Positions 13,632 through 24,369 of a stretch of 64,000 nucleotides of DNA are shown here, in pieces. The translations under genes were made by a program, and so were the position numbers. Under the pieces are notes generated by a model. It saw nothing but the letters and a program-made list of their open reading frames with translations, searched no databases and had not been told where the DNA came from. Position 1 is the first letter of the stretch, and each line of letters begins with the position of its first letter. The DNA is from a virus: IMG/VR virus record IMGVR_UViG_3300037245_001419, positions 124,001 through 188,000 of that record; one strand, 5' to 3'.

Positions 13632-14211
13632 TAAACCACTTATGGCTAACGACGATTTTATTAAAAAAGAAGCTAAGAAACATTCTTCTGAGAAGAAAAG
13701 AATAGTAACAATGTCTAAGAATGTTATTAGAAATGAACATGCAGAAATAATCAAAAAAATTAACGTAAAAAGAATGTTATGTATTGGTTGTAGACATGAT
13801 TCAGAAATAGTTTCATTTAACAAGAATGGATTCAGTGCGTCAGGTATCGACGTTGCAATAGAGACAGACCTTATCAAGCGTATGAACGCTCACGATATAA
13901 AAGAAACTTTTTCTGAAAATGAATTTGATGTTGTGTACTCTTCACATTCATTGGAACATATGTATGATCCTAAATTAGTGTTAGAAGGTATCAAGAAAAT
14001 AAGTAAACATGGCGTGTTTATTGTTCTCCCAATACAAATAAATGGTCAGCCATCTCATTCGCACCCCACAATGTTTGATGTGATGTTAAACCCACCACAA
14101 AGACTAAAAAAAGACAATCCTGTTTTAGACGACTTTAGTTGTCTTGGAGAATTTAAGGTGTCGTATTATAAAAAATCTTATGATGAAATAATTATGTATT
14201 TAACTTGGTAA
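13624..14211 (+). CDS. class I SAM-dependent methyltransferase
   Basis: 195 residues. KRMLCIGCRHDSEIVSF carries a slightly altered motif I (G-x-G replaced by G-C-R-H), followed by SASGIDVAI (motif II acid), FDVVYSSHSLEHMYDP (motif IV/post-IV as in Methyltransf_11) and VFIVLPIQ. Small-molecule or sugar methylation is likely from context; the altered glycine loop leaves some doubt. Confidence 0.8.
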   Translation: MINKPLMANDDFIKKEAKKHSSEKKRIVTMSKNVIRNEHAEIIKKINVKRMLCIGCRHDSEIVSFNKNGFSASGIDVAIETDLIKRMNAHDIKETFSENEFDVVYSSHSLEHMYDPKLVLEGIKKISKHGVFIVLPIQINGQPSHSHPTMFDVMLNPPQRLKKDNPVLDDFSCLGEFKVSYYKKSYDEIIMYLTW

Positions 14212-14217
14212 TAATTT

Positions 14218-14943
14218 ATGAAAATAGGTTGTATAATCAGATCCGTTGGTGAACGGACAGAAAATTTATGTATAGACTCTGTTGAACAATACATCAGTGA
14301 TGTTAATATAATAAAAAATGTTAGTCCATTTCACAAGGCTGTAGATCAAATGTTTGAGTATGCAGCTAAACAAGATTGGGACTGGTACATTGGTCTCGAT
14401 GCAGACGTAATACTTGCACCAGGTTGGTACGACACTTTAGTTAACTACCTCACTCATTTAGAAGGGAATGTTTTTAGAATAGACTTTCAGATTAAAGATA
14501 AGTTTGTTGACCCATTATTATGGGGGGTGCATGTTTATAATAATACCCACACTTCCTTATTAAGAGATGTATTGAAAAAAACTACACATCTAAATAAACC
14601 TGAGAGTGCCATTGTACACCAATTAAGAACCCACGCAAAGGCAATCAACGCCACTGGGATACTATTAGGATACCATGGATACCACCAATACAAGAAAGAC
14701 ATATTTAATAGATTTGCATTAAGAGCAACCCGTAACCCTGAGTGGTTAGAAAAATATAAATTGTTTAAACACTACGATGAAGATACAGCCATTGGAAAAC
14801 AAGGATGGAAGTATGGTCGAAAAAATATAAAAAAGATTGACTTCATGGACTACAATAATAAGAAAGACTTTGAGAACGAGTATCCACCTCTTAAAATAAC
14901 ACTTGAAGAATTCTATAAAGAAATAAAGGAGAGCAATGTTTAA
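14218..14943 (+). CDS. GT-A-like glycosyltransferase
   Basis: 241 residues. MKIGCIIRSVGERTENLC at the N-terminus, WDWYIGLDADVILAPGWYD near residue 58 giving a DAD metal site, and a C-terminal helical part rich in K and Y. The fold resembles truncated GT2 enzymes; acceptor unknown. Overlaps the next gene by 8 bases. Confidence 0.7.
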   Translation: MKIGCIIRSVGERTENLCIDSVEQYISDVNIIKNVSPFHKAVDQMFEYAAKQDWDWYIGLDADVILAPGWYDTLVNYLTHLEGNVFRIDFQIKDKFVDPLLWGVHVYNNTHTSLLRDVLKKTTHLNKPESAIVHQLRTHAKAINATGILLGYHGYHQYKKDIFNRFALRATRNPEWLEKYKLFKHYDEDTAIGKQGWKYGRKNIKKIDFMDYNNKKDFENEYPPLKITLEEFYKEIKESNV

Positions 14944-15520
14944 GTCTACTCTTGATAAAATAAAACACAAAGATACTTACGGCCCAACAACTTCTCGAAA
15001 ATTTAAAGAAGATATGATAGAAATTCTTATGGATAAACCCTGGAATGGAGACATACTAGAAGTAGGAATATTTACAGGTGAGACCACTCTCATTTTAGCA
15101 AAAATTGCAGAGAAGTTAAATAAAAAAGTATACGCATTTGAACAAAACAGTTCGTACATTAACCAAACACAGAGACTTCTAAAAGCTCATAATATAACTA
15201 ATGTAGAAATACAATTGAAAGATGTATATACGCAAGAATGGACAGTTGAAAATATAGGCTGTACGTTTATTGATTGTGTTCATACGCAAATGCATATTAG
15301 ACAAGACATACATAATACAAAATCAGTCATGTCAGGCAAAGGCTTTGTTTTTGTCCATGATTATGGGTTGATTGATGAACATGGTCAAAGTATAAAGCCA
15401 TATATAGATATATGTGAAATAACAAAGATCGTTAGGTTTATGGGTGAAGAATCCGATTGGGATAAAGTCCCGTATGGTAAAATTGTTGACTGGGAAGCAG
15501 CCCAATTGGAATTTATATAA
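14936..15520 (+). CDS. class I methyltransferase (class 24/TylF-like layout)
   Basis: 194 residues. DILEVGIFTGETTLILAKI is motif I, KVYAFEQNSSYI motif II, IGCTFIDCVHTQMHIRQDI the central acidic motif, and VFVHDYGLID a late strand. The V-H-T-Y/Q-x-x-x-x-x-D arrangement is seen in methyltransferases that modify sugars. Probably modifies the product of the neighbouring glycosyltransferases. Confidence 0.8.
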   Translation: MFKSTLDKIKHKDTYGPTTSRKFKEDMIEILMDKPWNGDILEVGIFTGETTLILAKIAEKLNKKVYAFEQNSSYINQTQRLLKAHNITNVEIQLKDVYTQEWTVENIGCTFIDCVHTQMHIRQDIHNTKSVMSGKGFVFVHDYGLIDEHGQSIKPYIDICEITKIVRFMGEESDWDKVPYGKIVDWEAAQLEFI

Positions 15521-15532
15521 CAAGGAGTATAT

Positions 15533-16441
15533 ATGAAAATATTAGTAACAGGTGGCTTAGGCTTTATAGGGTCAAACTTAGTAGATAAACTATGTGAAGA
15601 TCTTAACAATGATGTATATGTAATGGATAATTTGTCACGGGGTGACGAGATTAGAGCAAACATCAAAGCAACTACATATTCAGTAGATATTCGGGACGAA
15701 CCAGATGTAAATTTCTTTTTCCCCAATGGTCTAGACGTAATAGTCCATTTAGCAGCCTTAGCACGCATACAGCCGTCTTTCGAAGAACCCGTAGAGACAT
15801 GTTCTGTTAATATAGAAGGCACGCAGAAGGTACTCGAAATGGCCCGTAAACTGAAGTGTAAGGTTGTATACGCAGGTTCTAGTTCTGCACTTGGCGATCC
15901 TCATATTAATCCTTATTCATCATCCAAATATATGGGTGAACAAATGGTTGAAGCATACTATAAATGTTTCGATGTTCCAGGAGTTATAACCCGTTTCTAT
16001 AATGTATACGGAAATCGTAACGTCCAGGATGAAAAAATGGGTAATCTATTAGGAATATTACAAAAACAATACCTAGAAGACAAGCCCCTTACTTTAGTTG
16101 AAGATTGTAAGTCAAAAAAGAGAGATTTTACTTCAGTTAATGATATATGTGCCGGATTGATGCTCGCTGCAAGTCTAGATGGAGAGAAAATGAAAGCTCA
16201 GATATATAATTTGGGTAGAGGGTCGAACTTATCGGTCTATGAGGTTGGTATGTTCTTCAAAAAGTACTCTAAAAAGGATATAGTGATCGAATATTTACCT
16301 AAGAGAAAGGGAGAACAGGCAACGTCTTTAGCTGACCTGAAGAAATCACACTCTGAGTTGGGGTTCTACCCCGAAGAAAATATGGAAGATTATATACAAA
16401 ATTGGATTGAAATGAAGGAGATTGATGATGTCAATTTATAA
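15533..16441 (+). CDS. NAD-dependent epimerase/dehydratase (nucleotide-sugar SDR)
   Basis: 302 residues with AAGGAG upstream. KILVTGGLGFIGSNLVDKL contains the G-x-x-G-x-x-G NAD site; VIVHLAALARI, the catalytic AGSSSALG and Y-x-x-x-K (PYSSSKYMGE) near residue 130, RFYNVYG and RDFTSVNDIC follow. This is an extended SDR acting on UDP- or GDP-sugars: 4-epimerase or decarboxylase. Next to a UDP-glucose dehydrogenase, a UDP-glucuronate decarboxylase or epimerase role is attractive, but the family motifs do not decide it. Confidence 0.9.
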   Translation: MKILVTGGLGFIGSNLVDKLCEDLNNDVYVMDNLSRGDEIRANIKATTYSVDIRDEPDVNFFFPNGLDVIVHLAALARIQPSFEEPVETCSVNIEGTQKVLEMARKLKCKVVYAGSSSALGDPHINPYSSSKYMGEQMVEAYYKCFDVPGVITRFYNVYGNRNVQDEKMGNLLGILQKQYLEDKPLTLVEDCKSKKRDFTSVNDICAGLMLAASLDGEKMKAQIYNLGRGSNLSVYEVGMFFKKYSKKDIVIEYLPKRKGEQATSLADLKKSHSELGFYPEENMEDYIQNWIEMKEIDDVNL

Positions 16442-17210
16442 AAGATTAGATTTTAGCGGTTTGAATGGTTATGGAATAGCAGGTATGGGTTTTGTAGGCT
16501 CAGCTGTATTCAATACCTTTAATAATAAAGATTTTATTGTAGTATACGACAAATATAAAAAACATTTAGACAATAAACTGCCCATATTGAAAAAATGTAC
16601 ATACATATTTGCATGTCTACCCACCCCTATGGGTAAAAATGGCAAACAAGATTTCTCTGCATATCATACATTCTTTAAAGAGATTGAAGGGTATGAAGGT
16701 ATAGTTATTGTAAAAAGTACAGTATTATACTCAAATATAAAACCATACCTTGATAATTTCAACATAGTTATGAATCCAGAGTTTCTTAATCAGAATTCCG
16801 CATACTCTGACATGGAAAATGAGAAGGTAGTTATACTTGGTGGTGAAATTGACCTGGTAACTAAAGTAAAAAAACTTTATCAGAATAGCATGGGCAAAAA
16901 AGATGTATCATTTGAGATGTGCTCTATTGAAGAATCTATTAATATTAAGTATTTACATAACAACTACCACGCATATAAGGTATTGTTCTGGAATATGGTA
17001 TATGAAGTCACTGGAAATCACCGCAAAATCTTTGATGTGTACTCTAAACTCACTGGTAATACTCATGAGATGGCTAACGTAGCCTCAGATGGTAAGCTAG
17101 GATACGGTGGTGCATGCTTCCCGAAAGACGTAAACGCATTTTTTCATGAACATAACCACGAACTTAGCGAATTCATGAACAAATATAACGACCGTTTAAG
17201 AGGCGAATAA
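16428..17210 (+). CDS. short UDP-glucose/GDP-mannose dehydrogenase
   Basis: 260 residues from ATG 16428, seven bases after AAGGAG. GYGIAGMGFVGSAVF is the NAD glycine loop, FACLPTPMG follows, then VIVKSTV, MNPEFLNQNSAYSD, K/N helix residues in IKYLHNNYHAYKVLFWN, and LGYGGACFPKDVNAF with the catalytic cysteine. The usual C-terminal UDP-binding domain (a further 120-180 residues) is missing, so it is a minimal enzyme. It would oxidise a UDP-hexose to the uronic acid. Confidence 0.88.
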   Translation: MSIYKRLDFSGLNGYGIAGMGFVGSAVFNTFNNKDFIVVYDKYKKHLDNKLPILKKCTYIFACLPTPMGKNGKQDFSAYHTFFKEIEGYEGIVIVKSTVLYSNIKPYLDNFNIVMNPEFLNQNSAYSDMENEKVVILGGEIDLVTKVKKLYQNSMGKKDVSFEMCSIEESINIKYLHNNYHAYKVLFWNMVYEVTGNHRKIFDVYSKLTGNTHEMANVASDGKLGYGGACFPKDVNAFFHEHNHELSEFMNKYNDRLRGE

Positions 17211-17227
17211 CTAAAGTAAACCCATAA

Positions 17228-17235
17228 TATAAATA
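17228..17235 (+). promoter_or_regulatory. T4-type late promoter TATAAATA
   Basis: Exact match, 28 bp before the tail-tube-like gene start at 17263. Confidence 0.8.
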
Positions 17236-17262
17236 CTTCAAACCATTTTGGAGTGTTTGTAT

Positions 17263-17787
17263 ATGGGTTTCCCTAACGCTTTTAGTTCCGACAAGTTTCA
17301 ATTAAGATTTAGCAACATACCTACTGTCGGTGACAAGAAGGTAGACACTAGACTATTTGATTTATATGTCAAATCAATCATTGTATCAGATATTAACGAA
17401 GAGTTAGTTAACTCTGACATCTTTAATTTTCAGATAAGACATCCTATATCTAGAGCGAATGAAAATCTCAATCAGCTCATCATAGAATTTGTGTTAGATG
17501 AAGATTTCGAGAACTACTTCACGTTCTTTAATTTCATGCAACAAGAGAGATACCTGTACACTGAGAACACACCATCACAACCAAACGATGTTTTTAGACT
17601 TAATAATATAAAAACAATCGCCCTGGAACTACTGGATAATCAAGGCAGAGTTAAAAAAAGCCTGGACTTTACAGAAGCATATATTACATCCCTTAATTCA
17701 CTCAATTTAATTATGGGACTGTCAGAACAAGTAACATTTAATGCGTCATTTCAATACGAGCAGATATTGTTTAGAGAGAACGATTAA
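17263..17787 (+). CDS. tail-tube-like structural protein
   Basis: 174 residues. ATG 17263 is preceded by GGAG at 17250-17253; the TTG at 17248 lies before that site and is rejected. The protein begins FPNAFSSDKFQLRFSNIP and has alternating beta strands, an LIIEFVLDEDFENYFTFFNFM segment near residue 85 and TFNASFQYEQIL at the end, the layout of T4 gp19/gp54-type tail-tube proteins, where the conserved v-x-F-x-v-D-E-x-x-x-n-y segment is typical. The family assignment is by pattern only. Confidence 0.65.
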   Translation: MGFPNAFSSDKFQLRFSNIPTVGDKKVDTRLFDLYVKSIIVSDINEELVNSDIFNFQIRHPISRANENLNQLIIEFVLDEDFENYFTFFNFMQQERYLYTENTPSQPNDVFRLNNIKTIALELLDNQGRVKKSLDFTEAYITSLNSLNLIMGLSEQVTFNASFQYEQILFREND

Positions 17788-17800
17788 AATGTGAAAATTT

Positions 17801-17808
17801 TATAAATA
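17801..17808 (+). promoter_or_regulatory. T4-type late promoter TATAAATA
   Basis: Exact match 27 bp upstream of regA. Confidence 0.8.
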
Positions 17809-17834
17809 TTAAAAAATTGATTGAAGAGGACTAT

Positions 17835-18227
17835 ATGGAAACTATAGATAATTTGATAGAGTTTGAACCTTTGACTGATCTTAAGATCATCAAAGAAACT
17901 CTAGGCAGAATGGGTATCGCCAACAAGAAAGATAAAATATTATACCCGACAGCGTACATTTATGGAAACTTCGATAAGATGTACCTGGCACATTTCAAAC
18001 AACTGTTCCTTCTATCCCGTAAAGATGCGTATCCAAATGTATCAAGCGAAGACATAGAGAGACTAAACAGTATAGCTTTCTGCTTAGAAAGTTGGGGCCT
18101 TATTAAAATAATAAACGAAAGCATCGAACCCCACAACAAATTTATATTCGTTCTCCCATTTGAAGAAAAAGTAAACTGGGAAATATCACATAAATTCAAC
18201 ATTAAATCACTAAAATTTGCGAGGTAG
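17835..18227 (+). CDS. regA: RegA-like translational repressor
   Basis: 130 residues from ATG 17835 with AAGAGGA at 17824-17830. The text LKIIKETLGRMGIANKKDKILYPTAYIY, then AHFKQLFLL and LNSIAFCLESWGLIKI follows T4 RegA closely along its length (122 residues in T4). RegA binds ribosome-binding regions of early mRNAs and stops their translation. In T4 regA lies among replication genes; here it stands between a tail-tube-like gene and head-type genes, under a late-type promoter. Confidence 0.9.
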   Translation: METIDNLIEFEPLTDLKIIKETLGRMGIANKKDKILYPTAYIYGNFDKMYLAHFKQLFLLSRKDAYPNVSSEDIERLNSIAFCLESWGLIKIINESIEPHNKFIFVLPFEEKVNWEISHKFNIKSLKFAR

Positions 18228-18228
18228 C

Positions 18229-18372
18229 ATGAAAAGTTATGGCTTATTTGACGACGACGAGAATGGTTTAGAAGACGGTATGGGAATACCAAAATACGAT
18301 AATATATTTGGTGAAGAACCGGAAGAAGAGACAGAAGAATTAGATTTTTCACACGATGATGAGAATTTATAA
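18229..18372 (+). CDS. small acidic protein
   Basis: 47 residues starting one base after the regA stop with GAGG upstream. More than a third Asp/Glu (LFDDDENGLEDG, EEPEEETEE). A late promoter overlaps its stop. Too short for family recognition. Confidence 0.7.
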   Translation: MKSYGLFDDDENGLEDGMGIPKYDNIFGEEPEEETEELDFSHDDENL

Positions 18373-18375
18373 ATA
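18368..18375 (+). promoter_or_regulatory. T4-type late promoter TATAAATA
   Basis: Exact match, overlaps the preceding stop, 23 bp before the gene at 18398. Confidence 0.8.
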
Positions 18376-18397
18376 ATAGAATAAAGCGGAGGGACGA

Positions 18398-18904
18398 ATG
18401 CCTTATTTTAACGAATACATAAAAACATTACTTGAGAACGATGAAAATTGTGTTTTTATCAATGAAGACGACATTCAGAATTATGATCTGTCACAAATGG
18501 ATGAGAGAATCATTAAACAGAGAGTTGTTAGAGGTGGTAAAAGAAAGTTTAAATTTCAAACGAGTAAGGCTGGATTCAAAGTTTTAGTAAACAAAGAAGG
18601 CGTACCGAAAGAAGTTTTAATTCCACCCAAAGAAAGAAAAGCAAGAGAAATTTCACAGAAACGAGCTGCAAGACTAAGAAAAGTTAAGCAAGATCCGGCA
18701 CAAGAAAAAAGAGCTGCATCAATCAAACGATCTGAGATCATCCATAAGACTTCTTCAGAAAAGAAGCAAGATGAGCTACTTAAGAAGAAAAGAGATAAAG
18801 AAAAAGAAGATAAAGAAAGACAAAAACGCTTAACAGGTGGTGGTGGTACTAAGCCAAGCGACACCAAGAGAGAATCTTTCTCAGGAGTATACTATGGGAT
18901 TTAG
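18398..18904 (+). CDS. candidate internal head protein, basic
   Basis: 168 residues with GGAGGG before the ATG. The first residues MPYFNEYIKTLLEND resemble a T4 capsid-targeting sequence (amphipathic M-x-x-x-x-E-F/Y-I ending in a Glu cleavage site). The rest is Lys/Arg-rich and helical (residues 75-150), as in DNA-associated internal proteins of T4-like heads. Overlaps the next gene by 11 bases. Confidence 0.75.
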   Translation: MPYFNEYIKTLLENDENCVFINEDDIQNYDLSQMDERIIKQRVVRGGKRKFKFQTSKAGFKVLVNKEGVPKEVLIPPKERKAREISQKRAARLRKVKQDPAQEKRAASIKRSEIIHKTSSEKKQDELLKKKRDKEKEDKERQKRLTGGGGTKPSDTKRESFSGVYYGI

Positions 18905-19073
18905 ACAATTTTTTTACGTTGAAACTAAATCACCAAAAACCAGTGGTACACGCTTTGGATTTGCTCACGTCATTAGACACCCTGCCACATCTAGTAAAGA
19001 GAATGGTAACGGCAATGGTGAAGGTGATAGTGGTAGCGATGGTGGTGGTGATGGTGGCGGTGGGGGCGAGTAA
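18894..19073 (+). CDS. small glycine-rich protein with FRQFFY N-terminus
   Basis: 59 residues from ATG 18894 (GGAG at 18884). Begins MGFRQFFYVET, nearly identical to the start of the gene at 19901, then has a GNGNGEGDSGSDGGGDGGGG tail. The shared N-terminus suggests a common targeting signal; the rest is low complexity. Confidence 0.75.
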   Translation: MGFRQFFYVETKSPKTSGTRFGFAHVIRHPATSSKENGNGNGEGDSGSDGGGDGGGGGE

Positions 19074-19075
19074 CT

Positions 19076-19594
19076 GTGAACTTTAAAGATTTTTATAGCA
19101 TAGACCCAGTAATAGTTAATCTCTCTGAAGCACTTCAGATGGACGAAGAAACTGTTGCAGATCTGCGTTCATCTACAGATTCTGGAAGAAAGAAAAGATC
19201 TGGCCCAGTGGGTTCATTTTTTGAGAATGTATCAGCTAATTGGACGGTTATGTATACCTCTACTGCAGTAACTACACCAGGCGTAAGCCGTTGGACTCAA
19301 TATATTCAACCAGTAAATTTACCTGGACTGCGAGCATCACTAGATGAAGTGAGAGCATCATTTAATGGTGACGTTTTGGCGCATTGTACGTGTCCAGATT
19401 ATCGTTACAGGCTCGAATATTATGCAACACAAGATAGTTGGAATTATGGATCTGGGCAATCGACACCACCAAATGTAACAAATCCACCACCACCTCAGTA
19501 TGGAAAACTATGCAAGCATCTGGTAAATAGCATGGGTGTTATCAAAGGATCAACACCTACGATATTAAGCAATTACAGAAAGAAATTTTTATAG
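19076..19594 (+). CDS. SWIM-like zinc-binding virion candidate
   Basis: 172 residues from a GTG start two bases after the preceding stop. N-terminus MNFKDFYSIDPVI fits the targeting pattern of its neighbours. The C-terminal half holds HCTCPDYRYRLEYY and, 30 residues later, LCKHLVNSMG, giving a C-x-C-x(n)-C-x-H zinc site like a SWIM finger with a long Pro/Asn insert. Role unknown; a packaged DNA- or protein-binding protein is a fair guess. Confidence 0.75.
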   Translation: MNFKDFYSIDPVIVNLSEALQMDEETVADLRSSTDSGRKKRSGPVGSFFENVSANWTVMYTSTAVTTPGVSRWTQYIQPVNLPGLRASLDEVRASFNGDVLAHCTCPDYRYRLEYYATQDSWNYGSGQSTPPNVTNPPPPQYGKLCKHLVNSMGVIKGSTPTILSNYRKKFL

Positions 19595-19603
19595 GAGTAT
19601 TGA

Positions 19604-19858
19604 ATGAGTTTTTTTGAATTTTTAAATGAGAAAAGATTACTAGAAGAATTGGGAAACTTCCCAGACATAGCACTCAAAGCAGGTCGTAAGAAAAAATTCT
19701 TAGTAGTTGAATATAGTGAATGTGATGGTGGAATTAAGTTAAAATCCAACCAAGGCAAAGTTTTAGCTGAACATGACGTAGGGCAATTCCTACATGCAGA
19801 TCTACTTTGTCACTTCCTTGAGGCTCACGACCATCAAGTAAAACTAAAAGAGATATAA
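19604..19858 (+). CDS. small head-type protein with FFEFLNE N-terminus
   Basis: 84 residues, AGGAG before the ATG. MSFFEFLNEKRLLEE again matches a capsid-targeting-like start with an L-x-E site. The remainder is a small alpha/beta domain (KKFLVVEYSECDGGIKL, LLCHFLEAHDHQVKL) that I do not recognise. A late promoter overlaps its stop. Confidence 0.75.
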   Translation: MSFFEFLNEKRLLEELGNFPDIALKAGRKKKFLVVEYSECDGGIKLKSNQGKVLAEHDVGQFLHADLLCHFLEAHDHQVKLKEI

Positions 19859-19861
19859 ATA
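19854..19861 (+). promoter_or_regulatory. T4-type late promoter TATAAATA
   Basis: Exact match overlapping the preceding stop, 40 bp before the 19901 gene. Confidence 0.8.
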
Positions 19862-19900
19862 GTAACAGATTGATTGAATAATTCGGGAGGATAATTTAAT

Positions 19901-20221
19901 ATGAGTTTTAGACAATTTTTTTATGAAGGCATGGCCGTTCTTAATGATAGACAAAGCAAACTAGAAGCATCACCATACCCACGAGTGGGGAGAACTTCTT
20001 ATAATGCAGTCGATGAGAATACATGGTCTGGTCACGATGCACACGCACATGGATTTAATCTAGATGAGAACGGTAACGGTAAAACAGATAGCTTCGGTAA
20101 CGTAAGCGGAAAAGATACCCACTACCATGAAGTTAGAGGATGGGCAGTATTGCCAGCCAATAACCACGCTCACGGACTTACAGACAAATCTATCAGCGAT
20201 AAGAACTTCAAGAACAGCTAA
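19901..20221 (+). CDS. histidine-rich virion candidate with FRQFFYE N-terminus
   Basis: 106 residues; CGGGAGG upstream. MSFRQFFYEG opens the protein. The body has regularly spaced histidines (GHDAHAHGF, THYHEV, NNHAHGL) around a D-x-N-G-N-G-x-T-D turn that looks like a calcium- or metal-binding loop. It ends the late block; its stop overlaps the stop of a convergent small gene. Confidence 0.8.
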   Translation: MSFRQFFYEGMAVLNDRQSKLEASPYPRVGRTSYNAVDENTWSGHDAHAHGFNLDENGNGKTDSFGNVSGKDTHYHEVRGWAVLPANNHAHGLTDKSISDKNFKNS

Positions 20222-20358
20222 GGATTAAAGTAATCACCTTCAGATGGTATTTCTTTATCCCACGGCCAATAGACATGAAAATTATCTGGTATGTAATGAA
20301 TGCCAGGTATTAAACTTATGGAAATCACTATGTGATTTTCGTTTGTGATTATACACAT
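20218..20358 (-). CDS. small unknown protein
   Basis: 46 residues, too short for usual ORF lists. AGGAG stands 10 bases before the ATG, and the ATG overlaps the preceding stop (TAATG). Contains IPGIHYIPDNFHVYWPW. Last gene of the 25.5-20.2 kb early operon. Confidence 0.55.
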   Translation of the reverse strand: MCIITNENHIVISISLIPGIHYIPDNFHVYWPWDKEIPSEGDYFNP

Positions 20359-20783
20359 TATTTTTTATCTCCTGTCCAAGTATCCCATTCTTTCCAACGT
20401 GTAAAATTAATATGTATTTCTTTTTCAGAGAAATACTTTAGTTTTAGTTGGCATATTTCTTCAAGGCCGTCAATACGAGAGTAATTCAACGCACATCCCT
20501 TGCTACTACAAATATCCTTCAGCTTACTCAATTGATTTTGAGGTATACCAAGTGTATAGTAATAGTCTCCACTATAACGCAACGCCCACGCATGCCTATC
20601 ACCATCTTCACCTGATCTAACTAAAGTAATTTTATCAGTCAACCCATACTTATAATTACCAATCAACAAACTAAAGTTCATACTACTATTACTATAACCA
20701 GACGGTTTACCTTCAAAATGAGTGTTAAATATATTTCCGTATAAGTATTTGAGCACTACTTTTCTTTTATCTAACTTTGCCAT
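20358..20783 (-). CDS. KLKY-family paralogue 1
   Basis: 141 residues. Starts MAKLDKRKVVLKYL; the C-terminal part reads ICSSKGCALNYSR, then GLEEICQLKLKYFSEKEIHI, the signature shared by nine proteins in this window. The KLKYF codons contain the interspersed decamer. Function unknown. Confidence 0.85.
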   Translation of the reverse strand: MAKLDKRKVVLKYLYGNIFNTHFEGKPSGYSNSSMNFSLLIGNYKYGLTDKITLVRSGEDGDRHAWALRYSGDYYYTLGIPQNQLSKLKDICSSKGCALNYSRIDGLEEICQLKLKYFSEKEIHINFTRWKEWDTWTGDKK

Positions 20784-20786
20784 ACA

Positions 20787-21170
20787 TTACCAGGTTTTAA
20801 ATTCTACTTCTTTATCTGCAAAATACTTTAGTTTGATTGCACAAATCGCTTCGAGACCTTCTTCTCTTGATAGCAGCATAGCCTTGTTCCTATCCTTCAA
20901 TATCTCTTCTGCCATTTTAACCTTATCTAAATGTATCTCAAAAGCAAACCAATAAGGCGTACACCCATACGTAGCACGCACAGGATTATATAACAACCCT
21001 TTACTTACTCTAATTCCACTAAGCTTTACCAGCTCATATTTATCAGTTAAAACATAACTATAATTGCCGATACGTAAACTGTAGTATGTCATCCTAGAGT
21101 ATATGTTACCTCTATACGCATACCCATGTAAACGATGTACCCGTACTTTTCTTTTATCAAGCTTTGCCAT
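20787..21170 (-). CDS. KLKY-family paralogue 2
   Basis: 127 residues from the ATG at 21170 (TTG at 21173 is closer to no better site). N-terminus MAKLDKRKVRVHRLHGYAY, C-terminus AMLLSREEGLEAICAIKLKYF. Most similar to paralogue 1, three bases away, so a tandem duplication is likely. Both contain a YVLTDK or YGLTDK turn in the middle. Confidence 0.85.
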   Translation of the reverse strand: MAKLDKRKVRVHRLHGYAYRGNIYSRMTYYSLRIGNYSYVLTDKYELVKLSGIRVSKGLLYNPVRATYGCTPYWFAFEIHLDKVKMAEEILKDRNKAMLLSREEGLEAICAIKLKYFADKEVEFKTW

Positions 21171-21507
21171 CAAATATTATCTCCGTATTGGGAAAACACT
21201 TTAGTTTGCACTCACAGAAATCCACTATCTTATTATCATTATCTCGTGAATGAAGAACAGCATATCGTGAGTGCTCACAAATCTTTTTAACTATATCTAA
21301 CTTAGCCTCTGAGAATGAAAATGTATGAGACCTTCTTACAGACCATTGATTGTCATGAACAGTCATAGATGGACGACGAGTTACATTTCCTTTATGGTAA
21401 TCATATAATACGTTATCTATTAATAATCTGAAGTAGTGATTGTCATGAAATACATTGATGCCGTTATCGTGTAAAAACTTAAGTTTAACTATCTTTTTCT
21501 TTGTCAT
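21157..21507 (-). CDS. KLKY-family paralogue 3
   Basis: 116 residues. Starts MTKKKIVKLKFLHDNG; C-terminus ICEHSRYAVLHSRDNDNKI then VDFCECKLKCFPNTEIIF. Third consecutive family copy, overlapping its neighbours by 14-23 bases. Confidence 0.85.
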   Translation of the reverse strand: MTKKKIVKLKFLHDNGINVFHDNHYFRLLIDNVLYDYHKGNVTRRPSMTVHDNQWSVRRSHTFSFSEAKLDIVKKICEHSRYAVLHSRDNDNKIVDFCECKLKCFPNTEIIFDGKA

Positions 21508-21784
21508 ACATTTTTATTCGGTGTGGATAAAGCTTTTTCAAATCATCTAACGTTTCATGCATTTGCTGCAAAAGCTCTCGACCTTTGGTAGGCTTAAAAC
21601 AACCCATTTTAGTTTTTTCTTCGTCTGATTTACGAATGCCATTTTCATCCCACCATATCTCTAACATTCTATCATTACCATCTTTACACACTCTATCATA
21701 TACAAGTTTATGATTTACAAATCTGTCATTGCAACATTCATAAGAATCACATTCGTTACAACCACCAGTAATTTCTTCACTCAT
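21485..21784 (-). CDS. small cysteine-rich protein
   Basis: 99 residues. GCNECDSYECCNDRF near the N-terminus and two further cysteines (RVCKDG, MGCFKP) could bind zinc; the C-terminus is helical and charged. Not recognised. Confidence 0.8.
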   Translation of the reverse strand: MSEEITGGCNECDSYECCNDRFVNHKLVYDRVCKDGNDRMLEIWWDENGIRKSDEEKTKMGCFKPTKGRELLQQMHETLDDLKKLYPHRIKMYDKEKDS

Positions 21785-22476
21785 TTGTTTTTCCTCCGTT
21801 TTTTGCCGCCAGGTAACGTTTTAAAAGAGTAATCATAGAACCCCTTAGAATCTCGTATGACTTCATCAGATCCAACAGGAACTGTCCCTTGTGACTCCAA
21901 CGCCAACTCATTATTAAGATACATATGCAGCTCTTGCATTGCAGTATATGGATCTAGAACTCTAACGAAATCTAAAGGTTTCAACTCAGGATTAACTTCT
22001 AATCCATATTTGGAATCACGCCAATAATGATCATGAATTACCCTAAAGATAGGCACTTTATATTTTAAAAATAATGATTGAAGAAACTTATTATTGCGCA
22101 TCTTCTCATATGCATTTTTATATGAATAATTATCTCTAATATGATGTCGCCTACCCTCCTTTGAGTATTCAGCAAAGAATATATCCATTTCATCAGAATC
22201 AAATATATACCGATCTTTAGTATGATAATTTGAAGACACTACTTTCACATAAGGATATATCACTCCGGCAAAACCGATAGCTTCAATCTCATGAATAGTA
22301 TTGGATTTATTCCAATCATCCCAATATATACAGTGATCATCCCATGTGAATATTTCCAACTTATGTAGAGCATTTTCAATTATTTCAGTTTTACGTTCAT
22401 ACACTGGCACAACCTCGTCTTGAAACATGTTCAAGACGGAGTCGTAGTAATCAGTAAACTTGGAATAGATCCTCAT
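21781..22476 (-). CDS. conserved phage protein of unknown function
   Basis: 231 residues. MRIYSKFTDYYDSVLN, the central IGFAGVIYPYVKV and a charged C-terminus match a type of protein often annotated hypothetical in large phages. No catalytic motif visible. ATG overlaps the end of the NADAR gene. Confidence 0.85.
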   Translation of the reverse strand: MRIYSKFTDYYDSVLNMFQDEVVPVYERKTEIIENALHKLEIFTWDDHCIYWDDWNKSNTIHEIEAIGFAGVIYPYVKVVSSNYHTKDRYIFDSDEMDIFFAEYSKEGRRHHIRDNYSYKNAYEKMRNNKFLQSLFLKYKVPIFRVIHDHYWRDSKYGLEVNPELKPLDFVRVLDPYTAMQELHMYLNNELALESQGTVPVGSDEVIRDSKGFYDYSFKTLPGGKKRRKNK

Positions 22477-22958
22477 TACTTTTCATCCATAAACTTTTTA
22501 CGAACATCCATCAGACATATACCCAATAGATTTTTTCCCTTCCAGTTTTTCCGGTCAAATCTTTTCGGGTCATGCTCATCCAAACCGATACCCCAAATCT
22601 TATCAACAGGGGAAGCTTCAACAAGTTCTTTATCACCAGTATCAAACATATACTTTTTTAGTTGCTCGTTCTGACCGAACTTAGCTATGTTCGCATCGAT
22701 AACAATTTTAATGCGGTGCTTATTCCACTCAGCATCATTAAAGCCTTCAACCATACGACCATGCATTTTTTGATCCCATGGATTTTTAGCTTCGAGTATC
22801 ATAGCGAGTCGTTCGTCATCATTAAAGACCCGTGCCTTACCTGCCATCATGTATTGCTCTGCAGTTAAGTATGTAACTCCATCAACGACAAATTCTGATT
22901 TGAACCACTGGCTAAAAGGGCCACCGTAAAAGAAATGAAAATTGTTAGGCTTAGTCAT
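22476..22958 (-). CDS. NADAR-family protein (YbiA-like)
   Basis: 160 residues from ATG 22958; a longer frame to 23030 lies inside the macro gene and is rejected. FYGGPFSQWF, LTAEQYMMAGKARVF, NPWDQKMHGR, WNKHRIKIVIDANI, VDKIWGIGLDEHD and WKGKNLLGICLMDVRKKF are the family motifs in order. NADAR proteins cleave ADP-ribose-type N-glycosidic bonds; some remove ADP-ribose from guanosine in DNA and act as antitoxins to DarT1. It overlaps the macro-domain gene by 8 bases, so the two are co-translated. Confidence 0.92.
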   Translation of the reverse strand: MTKPNNFHFFYGGPFSQWFKSEFVVDGVTYLTAEQYMMAGKARVFNDDERLAMILEAKNPWDQKMHGRMVEGFNDAEWNKHRIKIVIDANIAKFGQNEQLKKYMFDTGDKELVEASPVDKIWGIGLDEHDPKRFDRKNWKGKNLLGICLMDVRKKFMDEK

Positions 22959-23439
22959 TAGTTTTTCCTCCAAGTAATGTTTCTGCTTCAACCAGTGTGG
23001 CATTCTTGTCCCATATGACAACGGTAACATCTTCTCCTCCTAGTTCTTCATTAATAATTAGTTCTATAATTTCCCAGTCACCTCTTGCAAGACCAGCACC
23101 TATTTTAGGCATGCCAATCTTCTTGCCAGAGAACAACTTTTTAATACATCTCATTGCACCACGAACAGCATCGTAGTCAATGTTTATGTTTTGCCTGTTA
23201 CAACCAAACTGTGTGTAAGAGTTTATAACTGTTGGCTTAGTTTTCATAGTGTATGTAATCGTACCCAACTTACTTCTATCACCCTTAATAGTTGCTTTAT
23301 CCTTTTCCCAGGCTTCAGGGAAACTTTCTTTAATCTGTGGCGCAATACCAGACCCCATGTTACAGAAGCAGTTACAGCCATGTGTAATAGCATCAAACTG
23401 AAGTGCATCTTTTACGAGGTCTCCTTTAATATACTTCAT
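22951..23439 (-). CDS. macro-domain protein (ADP-ribose hydrolase/phosphatase-like)
   Basis: 162 residues. MKYIKGDLV, then ITHGCNCFCNMGSGIAPQI, KLGTITY, VINSYTQFG and IGMPKIGAGLARGDWEIIELI follow the Poa1/TARG1-type macro fold; the NxxxxMGSGIA and GAGLARGDW loops form the ADP-ribose pocket. Such enzymes hydrolyse ADP-ribose esters or ADP-ribose-1''-phosphate, and DarG-type macro domains remove ADP-ribose from thymidine in DNA. Paired with NADAR downstream. Confidence 0.92.
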   Translation of the reverse strand: MKYIKGDLVKDALQFDAITHGCNCFCNMGSGIAPQIKESFPEAWEKDKATIKGDRSKLGTITYTMKTKPTVINSYTQFGCNRQNINIDYDAVRGAMRCIKKLFSGKKIGMPKIGAGLARGDWEIIELIINEELGGEDVTVVIWDKNATLVEAETLLGGKTND

Positions 23440-23918
23440 TTACCCTTCTTGTAGTTAAAAAATTTGTCAATGTCTTTTTCTTCACCCTGATCTCTGAACA
23501 TGTTAATAGATGATATAAGGTCTTCGTAACTATCAACTAGGTAGTTATGCTTAATTTTAACATCAAATGGTATAACGTGTTTTGGGAAAAACTTTAGTTT
23601 AATCTTCGAGAATAGGTTCACTTCATCAGATTTATGTCTGTGGATAAGAGCCATGTTAGTGGACGTACATATCTCAGAAACCGCAGTTAAGTCATCAGCA
23701 CTAAACATAAATGTATAATGGAAAGAAGACGACGACCCATACCAACGTTGCTTAGACCTATCCTCATAAGTTTTAGCATCGTACCGCACAAGATTGTCAT
23801 TCAACATCATGTATTTGTAGTTGCCAACCAACAAGTTAAAATGAACCCCATCTTTTGAATCACGAGGATGGCTTAGCAGCCATCTTAAATTAATTTTTCT
23901 ATCATCAAGATTAGCCAT
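23436..23918 (-). CDS. KLKY-family paralogue 4
   Basis: 160 residues, the longest member. MANLDDRKINLRWL resembles the start of paralogues 1 and 2; C-terminal core ICTSTNMALIHRHKSDEVN then LFSKIKLKFFPKHVIPF, followed by an extra 35-residue charged tail. Confidence 0.85.
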   Translation of the reverse strand: MANLDDRKINLRWLLSHPRDSKDGVHFNLLVGNYKYMMLNDNLVRYDAKTYEDRSKQRWYGSSSSFHYTFMFSADDLTAVSEICTSTNMALIHRHKSDEVNLFSKIKLKFFPKHVIPFDVKIKHNYLVDSYEDLISSINMFRDQGEEKDIDKFFNYKKGK

Positions 23919-24369
23919 TTTCAGCCTCCTTAGATTTTTTAGTTGCTAGATACTCAAGAGAGTATTTAATGTTATCGGTTACTTCAGTTACATTAGAAAA
24001 CAACATGTCTACCTTGTGGTAGTTATTATCATAAATCTTGTATAGCCGAAGACCGTCATCAAATATAATTAATGAATGCTGAGGGTATTGCTTCAATATT
24101 GTTTCAGTGTACTTCAAATCCATTAACGTCTGGTCTAGGTATGCTGCCTCGTGATTCTCCTCAAGTGTGTAATGCATGGGGGAACTATCACGTACTTTTT
24201 CACGCTTAATGTTTTCACATTTATTTTTAGTAATACGTTGTTGTATGCCAAAGCTGTTACCACGCTTATCAATAAGCACAAAGTTCATCTTAACACGAGT
24301 GTGTATTAAGTTATAACACGCTGAAAGCATCTTAGATGATTCGCTTAGTGTAAAATACCGTTCTGTCAT
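23911..24369 (-). CDS. unknown early protein
   Basis: 152 residues, alpha/beta, with a lysine-rich central stretch. No motif recognised. Overlaps both neighbours (8 and 4 bases), so it belongs to the operon. Confidence 0.85.
   Translation of the reverse strand: MTERYFTLSESSKMLSACYNLIHTRVKMNFVLIDKRGNSFGIQQRITKNKCENIKREKVRDSSPMHYTLEENHEAAYLDQTLMDLKYTETILKQYPQHSLIIFDDGLRLYKIYDNNYHKVDMLFSNVTEVTDNIKYSLEYLATKKSKEAENG

Follow-up and report, generated by a model that had tools for sequence, protein, structure and literature searches.

The internal proteins of T-even phages share an N-terminal leader, which has been suggested as a general route into the head (PMC9026906, PMC12373910, PMC3012670). Internal proteins of these phages have been identified by means of this leader, and the three proteins IPI, IPII and IPIII inhibit different GmrSD restriction enzymes (PMC12373910). 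In T4 IPIII the first 10 residues suffice for packaging, and within the capsid-targeting sequence (CTS) of T4 targeting depends chiefly on residues 4 and 7 and processing on residues 8 and 10 (PMC9026906). An Asp residue at position 10 keeps targeting and blocks processing; the protease gp21 cuts after L/I-x-E, and this cleavage takes place inside proheads (PMC9026906). For phages like the one considered here, no description of a shared leader was found in open-licence papers.

The window, a stretch of 64,000 nucleotides, covers positions 124001-188000 in the 211,777-bp record of an uncultured virus; positions given below without further comment are those of the window, all others are marked as record positions. 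By its gene sequences the phage is of the T4 type but divergent, a distant relative of T4. The best identity of its gp23 is only 37%, to cyanophage homologs, and megablast of window positions 14000-24000 against GenBank phages returned 0 matches. The head genes lie outside the window in a T4-like order, with the portal gene (record 93758), two small core-like ORFs (record 95408 and 96491), gp21 (record 95824; PF03420, E 6e-30), a gp22-type scaffold gene (record 96830) and gp23 (record 97727; PF07068, E 4e-85), where portal, core-like ORFs and scaffold were assigned from position and sequence, without a family search. A gp55 homolog is located at record 73.9-74.1 kb (E 2e-12). Thus gp20 (portal), gp21, gp22, gp23 and gp55 are all represented in the phage genome. 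The original prediction of head packaging depended on a gp21-type protease, and the gp21 encoded here keeps the His and Ser positions that are conserved across gp21 sequences.

Several other features of the genome were noticed. A shorter ORF of 259 aa that resembles a terminase large subunit (record 103556) precedes the full-length one of 532 aa (record 104311), a duplicated or split terminase. Related sequences of the type YGEDRDRHI... and NTSAANEEPI.PDP.PPVNDDPFGGW are found close to the tail fibres in a single ORF (record 83944) and recur, apparently split, after gp23 (record 99632/100160). A second shared leader, unrelated to the one described below, is present at record 197-206 kb outside the window: 10 small minus-strand proteins with different bodies, for example MNIEHLDTLVGP, MNIQHLDTLVGP and MVDLIKHLDTLVKP, have the motif HLDTLV[GKE]P close to their N-termini.

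Five consecutive plus-strand ORFs with a common aromatic start had been proposed as internal head proteins, and both their coordinates and their N-termini were confirmed. The first candidate (18398..18904, +) has 168 aa, is basic (pI 9.9, charge +16) and starts with MPYFNEYIKTLLE. The second (18894..19073, +; 59 aa) combines the start MGFRQFFYVE, hereafter called the tag, with a Gly/Asp-rich tail. The third candidate (19076..19594, +; 172 aa) bears the tag MNFKDFYSID with Asp at position 10 and begins with GTG, which makes its start the least certain of the five. The fourth (19604..19858, +; 84 aa) has the tag MSFFEFLNE, which contains a strict L-x-E site, and the fifth (19901..20221, +; 106 aa) is a His-rich protein with HxH motifs behind the tag MSFRQFFYE. 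Genes 1-4 look like one operon, as the start of gene 2 falls within the end of gene 1 and about 10 bp or less separate gene 3 from gene 2 and gene 4 from gene 3. The cluster is adjoined by a gene for a RegA-type translational repressor (17835..18227, +; PF01818, E 4e-21; phrog_242, E 1e-28), which is mentioned as context only. From the other side repeated small minus-strand paralogs with the similar starts MAKLDKRKVVLKYL, MAKLDKRKVRVHRL and MANLDDRKINLRWL converge on it (20358-23918).

Outside the N-termini no convincing pairwise BLAST similarity was detected among the five proteins, in agreement with the proposal of unrelated bodies. Nevertheless the fifth body is not unique: a short distance ahead of the portal gene, at record 92095, a paralog of protein 19901 bearing the same tag is encoded (28% identity, E about 1e-7). 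Seven of the first eight residues of 18894 and 19901 match, a stretch of 17 nt just after the start is identical in the two genes, and their bodies are unrelated. Clearly basic character is confined to 18398; the other four proteins have pI values of 6.0-8.4. The label SWIM-like given to 19076 holds for a CxC...CxH motif near residues 103-146 but is weak at the family level, where the Pfam SWIM match reached 13.5 bits, under the cut-off of 19.6. This protein also matched phrog_18980 (E 2e-4) and phrog_4315 (E 8e-4). A tblastn search with two of the bodies gave no match, a search of viral contigs for related bodies yielded one near-identical contig and no further homologs, and genome searches with phrog_1722 and phrog_4315 found no matches outside the phage's own genome. 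PADLOC defence models gave no informative match to the five proteins, the single match (E 0.04) falling on a charged coil-like stretch. Single-sequence structure models (mean pLDDT 56 for 19604 and 42 for 19076) were left out of the argument.

The best reading of the tag is a short helical segment that carries one aromatic residue three positions after another, then a hydrophobic residue and, behind it, an acidic one (Glu or Asp). All five tags have the aromatic pair at i and i+3 (F3/F6 or F4/Y7). The likeness to the starts of T4 internal proteins that had been pointed out is borne out, as aromatics three apart with Glu three residues after the second one correspond to the mutationally defined CTS. 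The regular expression M-x(0-3)-[FYW]-x-x-[FYW]-[FYLIMV]-x(1-2)-[ED], which was taken from the original prediction, fits four of the five. The exception is 18398, where Glu is found at position 13 instead of 10; its pair F4/Y7 is positioned as Y4/F7 in T4, E10 is missing, and LLE follows at positions 11-13 in an IPI-like arrangement. Genome-wide, six genes fit this expression compared to 1.75 expected with internal windows as background. Besides the four cluster genes these are the genes at record 92095 and 99138, of which the former stands shortly before the portal gene and the latter directly after gp23, so that both flank the head genes.

Two position weight matrices (PWMs) were applied to rank the N-termini of this genome. 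The first was trained on other phages only, which guards against circularity, and placed the five genes within the top seven of 394, with 18398 at rank 6. The second, likewise from other phages only and with sequences matching the scan pattern removed, placed them at ranks 2-6 of 394 (19604, 19901, 18398, 19076 and 18894, in this order), with every score at least 7.8 and with 92095 at rank 1; the choice of the training sequences had followed a loose aromatic/acidic pattern modelled on the original prediction, so that they are independent in sequence, not in design. When every N-terminus was shuffled 3000 times, no five-gene block ever contained more than three genes scoring above 5, and block sums reached at most 24.2, compared to 48.5 observed. 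Applied to T4, the first PWM, which contains no T4 sequence, gave ranks 1, 2 and 3 of 289 genes to gp61.1, ipII and ipIII and rank 6 to ipI. With this recovery of ipI, ipII and ipIII the motif is tied to established constituents of the head. The gene with the top T4 score, gp61.1 (AF158101 18966-19130), is annotated as hypothetical and starts with MKTFKEFIKE; it may encode an unrecognised internal head protein. A weak further tag candidate without E10 is a 54-aa minus-strand ORF at record 25381 with the start MSNFKEFMFAQAHE, which is preceded by a perfect late promoter 32 bp upstream.

The T4 late promoter has the sequence TATAAAT (PMC3037559) and is described as an 8-bp TATA box (PMC2988020). 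Perfect matches to a T4-type late promoter, TATAAATA, are present at 18368..18375 (+), 30 bp before gene 18398 and across the end of the preceding ORF, and at 19854..19861 (+), 47 bp before gene 19901. Genes 2-4 lie on the same strand as gene 1, overlapping or closely trailing. Of the 44 copies of TATAAATA in the whole genome, 29 precede a gene start by 10-80 bp, compared to 7.5 +/- 4.2 with permuted octamers; these 29 include copies before portal, gp21, gp22, gp23, many tail genes and the tagged gene after gp23. As judged by these promoters, the cluster genes would be part of late transcripts and would be expressed during head assembly. The octamer supports lateness in this genome only, because few tagged genes elsewhere have TATAAATA directly upstream and it is absent from that position in T4, KVP40 and several other phages.

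Cleavage of some of the five tags by gp21 is likely. A strict L/I-x-E site is present in two of them only (LNE in 19604, LLE in 18398), while 18894 (YVE) and 19901 (FYE) have an aromatic residue at P3 and the tag of 19076 ends with SID. By the Asp rule of T4, 19076 would be packaged but uncut. The putative processing site in gp23 of this phage reads AFGSLNE/AS where T4 has AFGSFLTE/AE, and thus has the same L-N-E as the fourth tag (19604); this match was read from the flanking AFGS, as the automatic alignment splits the region. The gp22-type scaffold contains 17 L/I-x-E sites versus 6.9 expected, a richness that is to be expected of a core which gp21 digests. Among 61 unseeded cases in other phages, 28 have Glu at the last tag position (9.9% expected, p 6e-13) and one has Asp, and the residue after this Glu is often Ala or Ser. 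The preference for Glu over Asp favours proteolysis, because a generic acidic helix cap would not tell Glu from Asp.

The match to the CTS, the presence of gp21, the detection of T4 internal proteins by the PWM and the late promoters all support packaging in the head. We consider it quite probable, on the strength of these features, that the five are internal head proteins which enter the head via a T4-style capsid-targeting sequence. Late transcription would provide the tagged proteins during prohead assembly, where the tag would bind the gp22-type scaffold core and thereby take any attached body into the prohead. Where a site is present gp21 would cut after the tag Glu and free the body, which would stay among the packaged DNA and be ejected with it at the next infection. 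Injection is the usual fate of such internal head proteins. Accordingly the five proteins probably travel in the head together with the DNA and so reach the next bacterium, injection itself being somewhat favoured. The variety of the bodies (basic coil, Gly/Asp-rich, CxC...CxH, His-rich) suggests separate jobs, most plausibly in modulation of the host or of its defence. Blocking of restriction, as had been envisaged for these proteins, is one unproven option among several and for the five a rather doubtful one.

A DNA pattern scan of IMG/VR for the tag revealed 42 loci versus 12 for a permuted control, and gp21 was present in 8 of 35 tag contigs versus 1 of 12 control contigs, many contigs being short. 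As this enrichment is modest and many contigs are without gp21, the tests within the genome carry the argument. In four T4-type records the number of tagged unrelated proteins exceeds the expected one (G022, 16 vs. 2.3; G014, 11 vs. 1.3; G024, 4 vs. 0.14; G029, 3 vs. 0.2), where one match per record is due to selection, since each record was reached via one tagged gene. The tagged cargo includes, by Pfam, ART-PolyVal (one over, one under the cut-off), DnaJ, HD_4, polyA polymerase plus HD, cupin and AAA proteins. The tagged ART-PolyVal type proteins belong to the T4-type phages G022 (L096:18069-18620:-) and G014 (L079:7047-7601:+) and recall the packaged Alt of T4. A tagged HD_4 protein, a SpoT-like hydrolase (L120:7969-8493:+; also L045) with the start MKFKEFFAE, is encoded on a fragment without gp21 in view; a packaged alarmone-type hydrolase, if the protein is one, would be notable.

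A few tagged genes each were found in KVP40 and Melnitz-2. In KVP40 the adjacent hypothetical genes KVP40.0065 (MLGNFDSFLSE) and KVP40.0066 (MKQFCNFLAE) are close to gene 24 (AY283928 37733-39834), and KVP40.0097 (AY283928 58233-59687) has the tag MKLFTEFYQE. In Melnitz-2 a RimK-like ATP-grasp protein with the start MTQKFSQFITE (MZ577096 82-1131) is encoded directly after a translational regulator gene; likewise regA precedes the cluster of the window. No clear tag excess was seen in S-RIM32 and phiM12, which encode gp21, nor in the gp21-encoding Rak2-like phages CBB (3 vs. 3.1 expected) and RaK2 (1 vs. 3.1 expected). The published virion proteome of CBB (PMC5259590) was dropped as a test of the tag, as Rak2-like phages are without tag excess. 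The non-T4 controls T5, phiKZ and SPO1 gave 0-1 PWM matches each, about the chance level.

Whether the tag is a modular head-packaging signal across many uncultured T4-type phages, loading enzymes and unrelated cargo for delivery to the host, appears to us evenly balanced. The candidate cargo would comprise ADP-ribosyltransferases, J-domain, SpoT-like HD, polyA polymerase-HD, cupin and AAA proteins, and the cluster of the window would be one cargo locus with metal-binding-like bodies. If this is true, the tag is a sequence handle for finding injected effectors. The predicted address rule is simple, with aromatics at i and i+3 and Glu at i+6; if the leader can be read in far more distant T4-type phages, candidate injected proteins could be listed from sequence, which would be useful in genomes with hardly any annotation of small genes.

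Alternatively, the five could act in the prohead core or as assembly helpers, similar to gp67 or gp68; they would then be bound to the scaffold through the tag and be digested or left behind, with no role in the host. T4 core proteins share processing by gp21 and IPIII affects head assembly (PMC9026906); furthermore, the remaining tagged genes (record 92095 and 99138) stand beside portal and gp23, and the coil protein 18398 looks core-like. However, the zinc-type, His-rich and Gly-rich bodies are too diverse for a single assembly role, and in other phages the tag is attached to enzymes (ART-PolyVal, DnaJ, HD_4, polyA polymerase-HD, AAA), so that we regard helpers of this kind as improbable. 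It is very unlikely that the tag addresses proteins to another part of the virion, such as tail tube, neck or baseplate: a tail-tube paralog (phrog_45) precedes the cluster, and the SWIM-like region gave a weak match to the 'tail' family phrog_1722 (E 0.03), but this match was not confirmed in genome searches, the T4 carriers of the motif are head internal proteins, and the conserved Glu fits cleavage by gp21, which occurs inside proheads (PMC9026906). A shared start due to chance, or arising secondarily from AT-rich starts together with a single recent gene duplication, to which the 17-nt identity between 18894 and 19901 and the paralog of 19901 could point, has a negligible probability, since none of the 3000 shuffles reproduced the block with a matrix from other phages and the T5, phiKZ and SPO1 controls stayed about chance; a chance origin of the five-gene tag block was thus rejected.

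As candidate internal head proteins, the five resemble IPI, IPII and IPIII of T4 (MKTYQEFIAE / MKTFKEFTSTTTPVSTITE) in the aromatics three apart and in the hydrophobic residue and Glu after the second of them, in the unrelated bodies behind one leader and in the occurrence of gp21 in the same phage. T4 IPI is like 18398 also in the absence of E10, with I-T-E further on. In contrast to T4, the aromatics of four of the five are located at positions 3/6 instead of 4/7, and FF or FY is frequent. The bodies are not homologous to those of the T4 proteins, and four of the five are not strongly basic, a property that is typical, not strictly defining, for T4-type internal proteins. A further difference is the layout of the cluster, in which two late promoters serve five adjacent genes. 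The Dar proteins of phage P1 and the ejection proteins of phiKZ-like phages are also packaged, and some are antirestriction proteins, but these systems differ in their proteases and signals; in the phiKZ stretch that was searched the motif was not enriched. T4 Alt is a packaged and injected ADP-ribosyltransferase. Although no ART is found among the five cluster proteins, Alt is a precedent for packaging and injecting an enzyme, and tagged ART-PolyVal proteins are encoded by two other phages.
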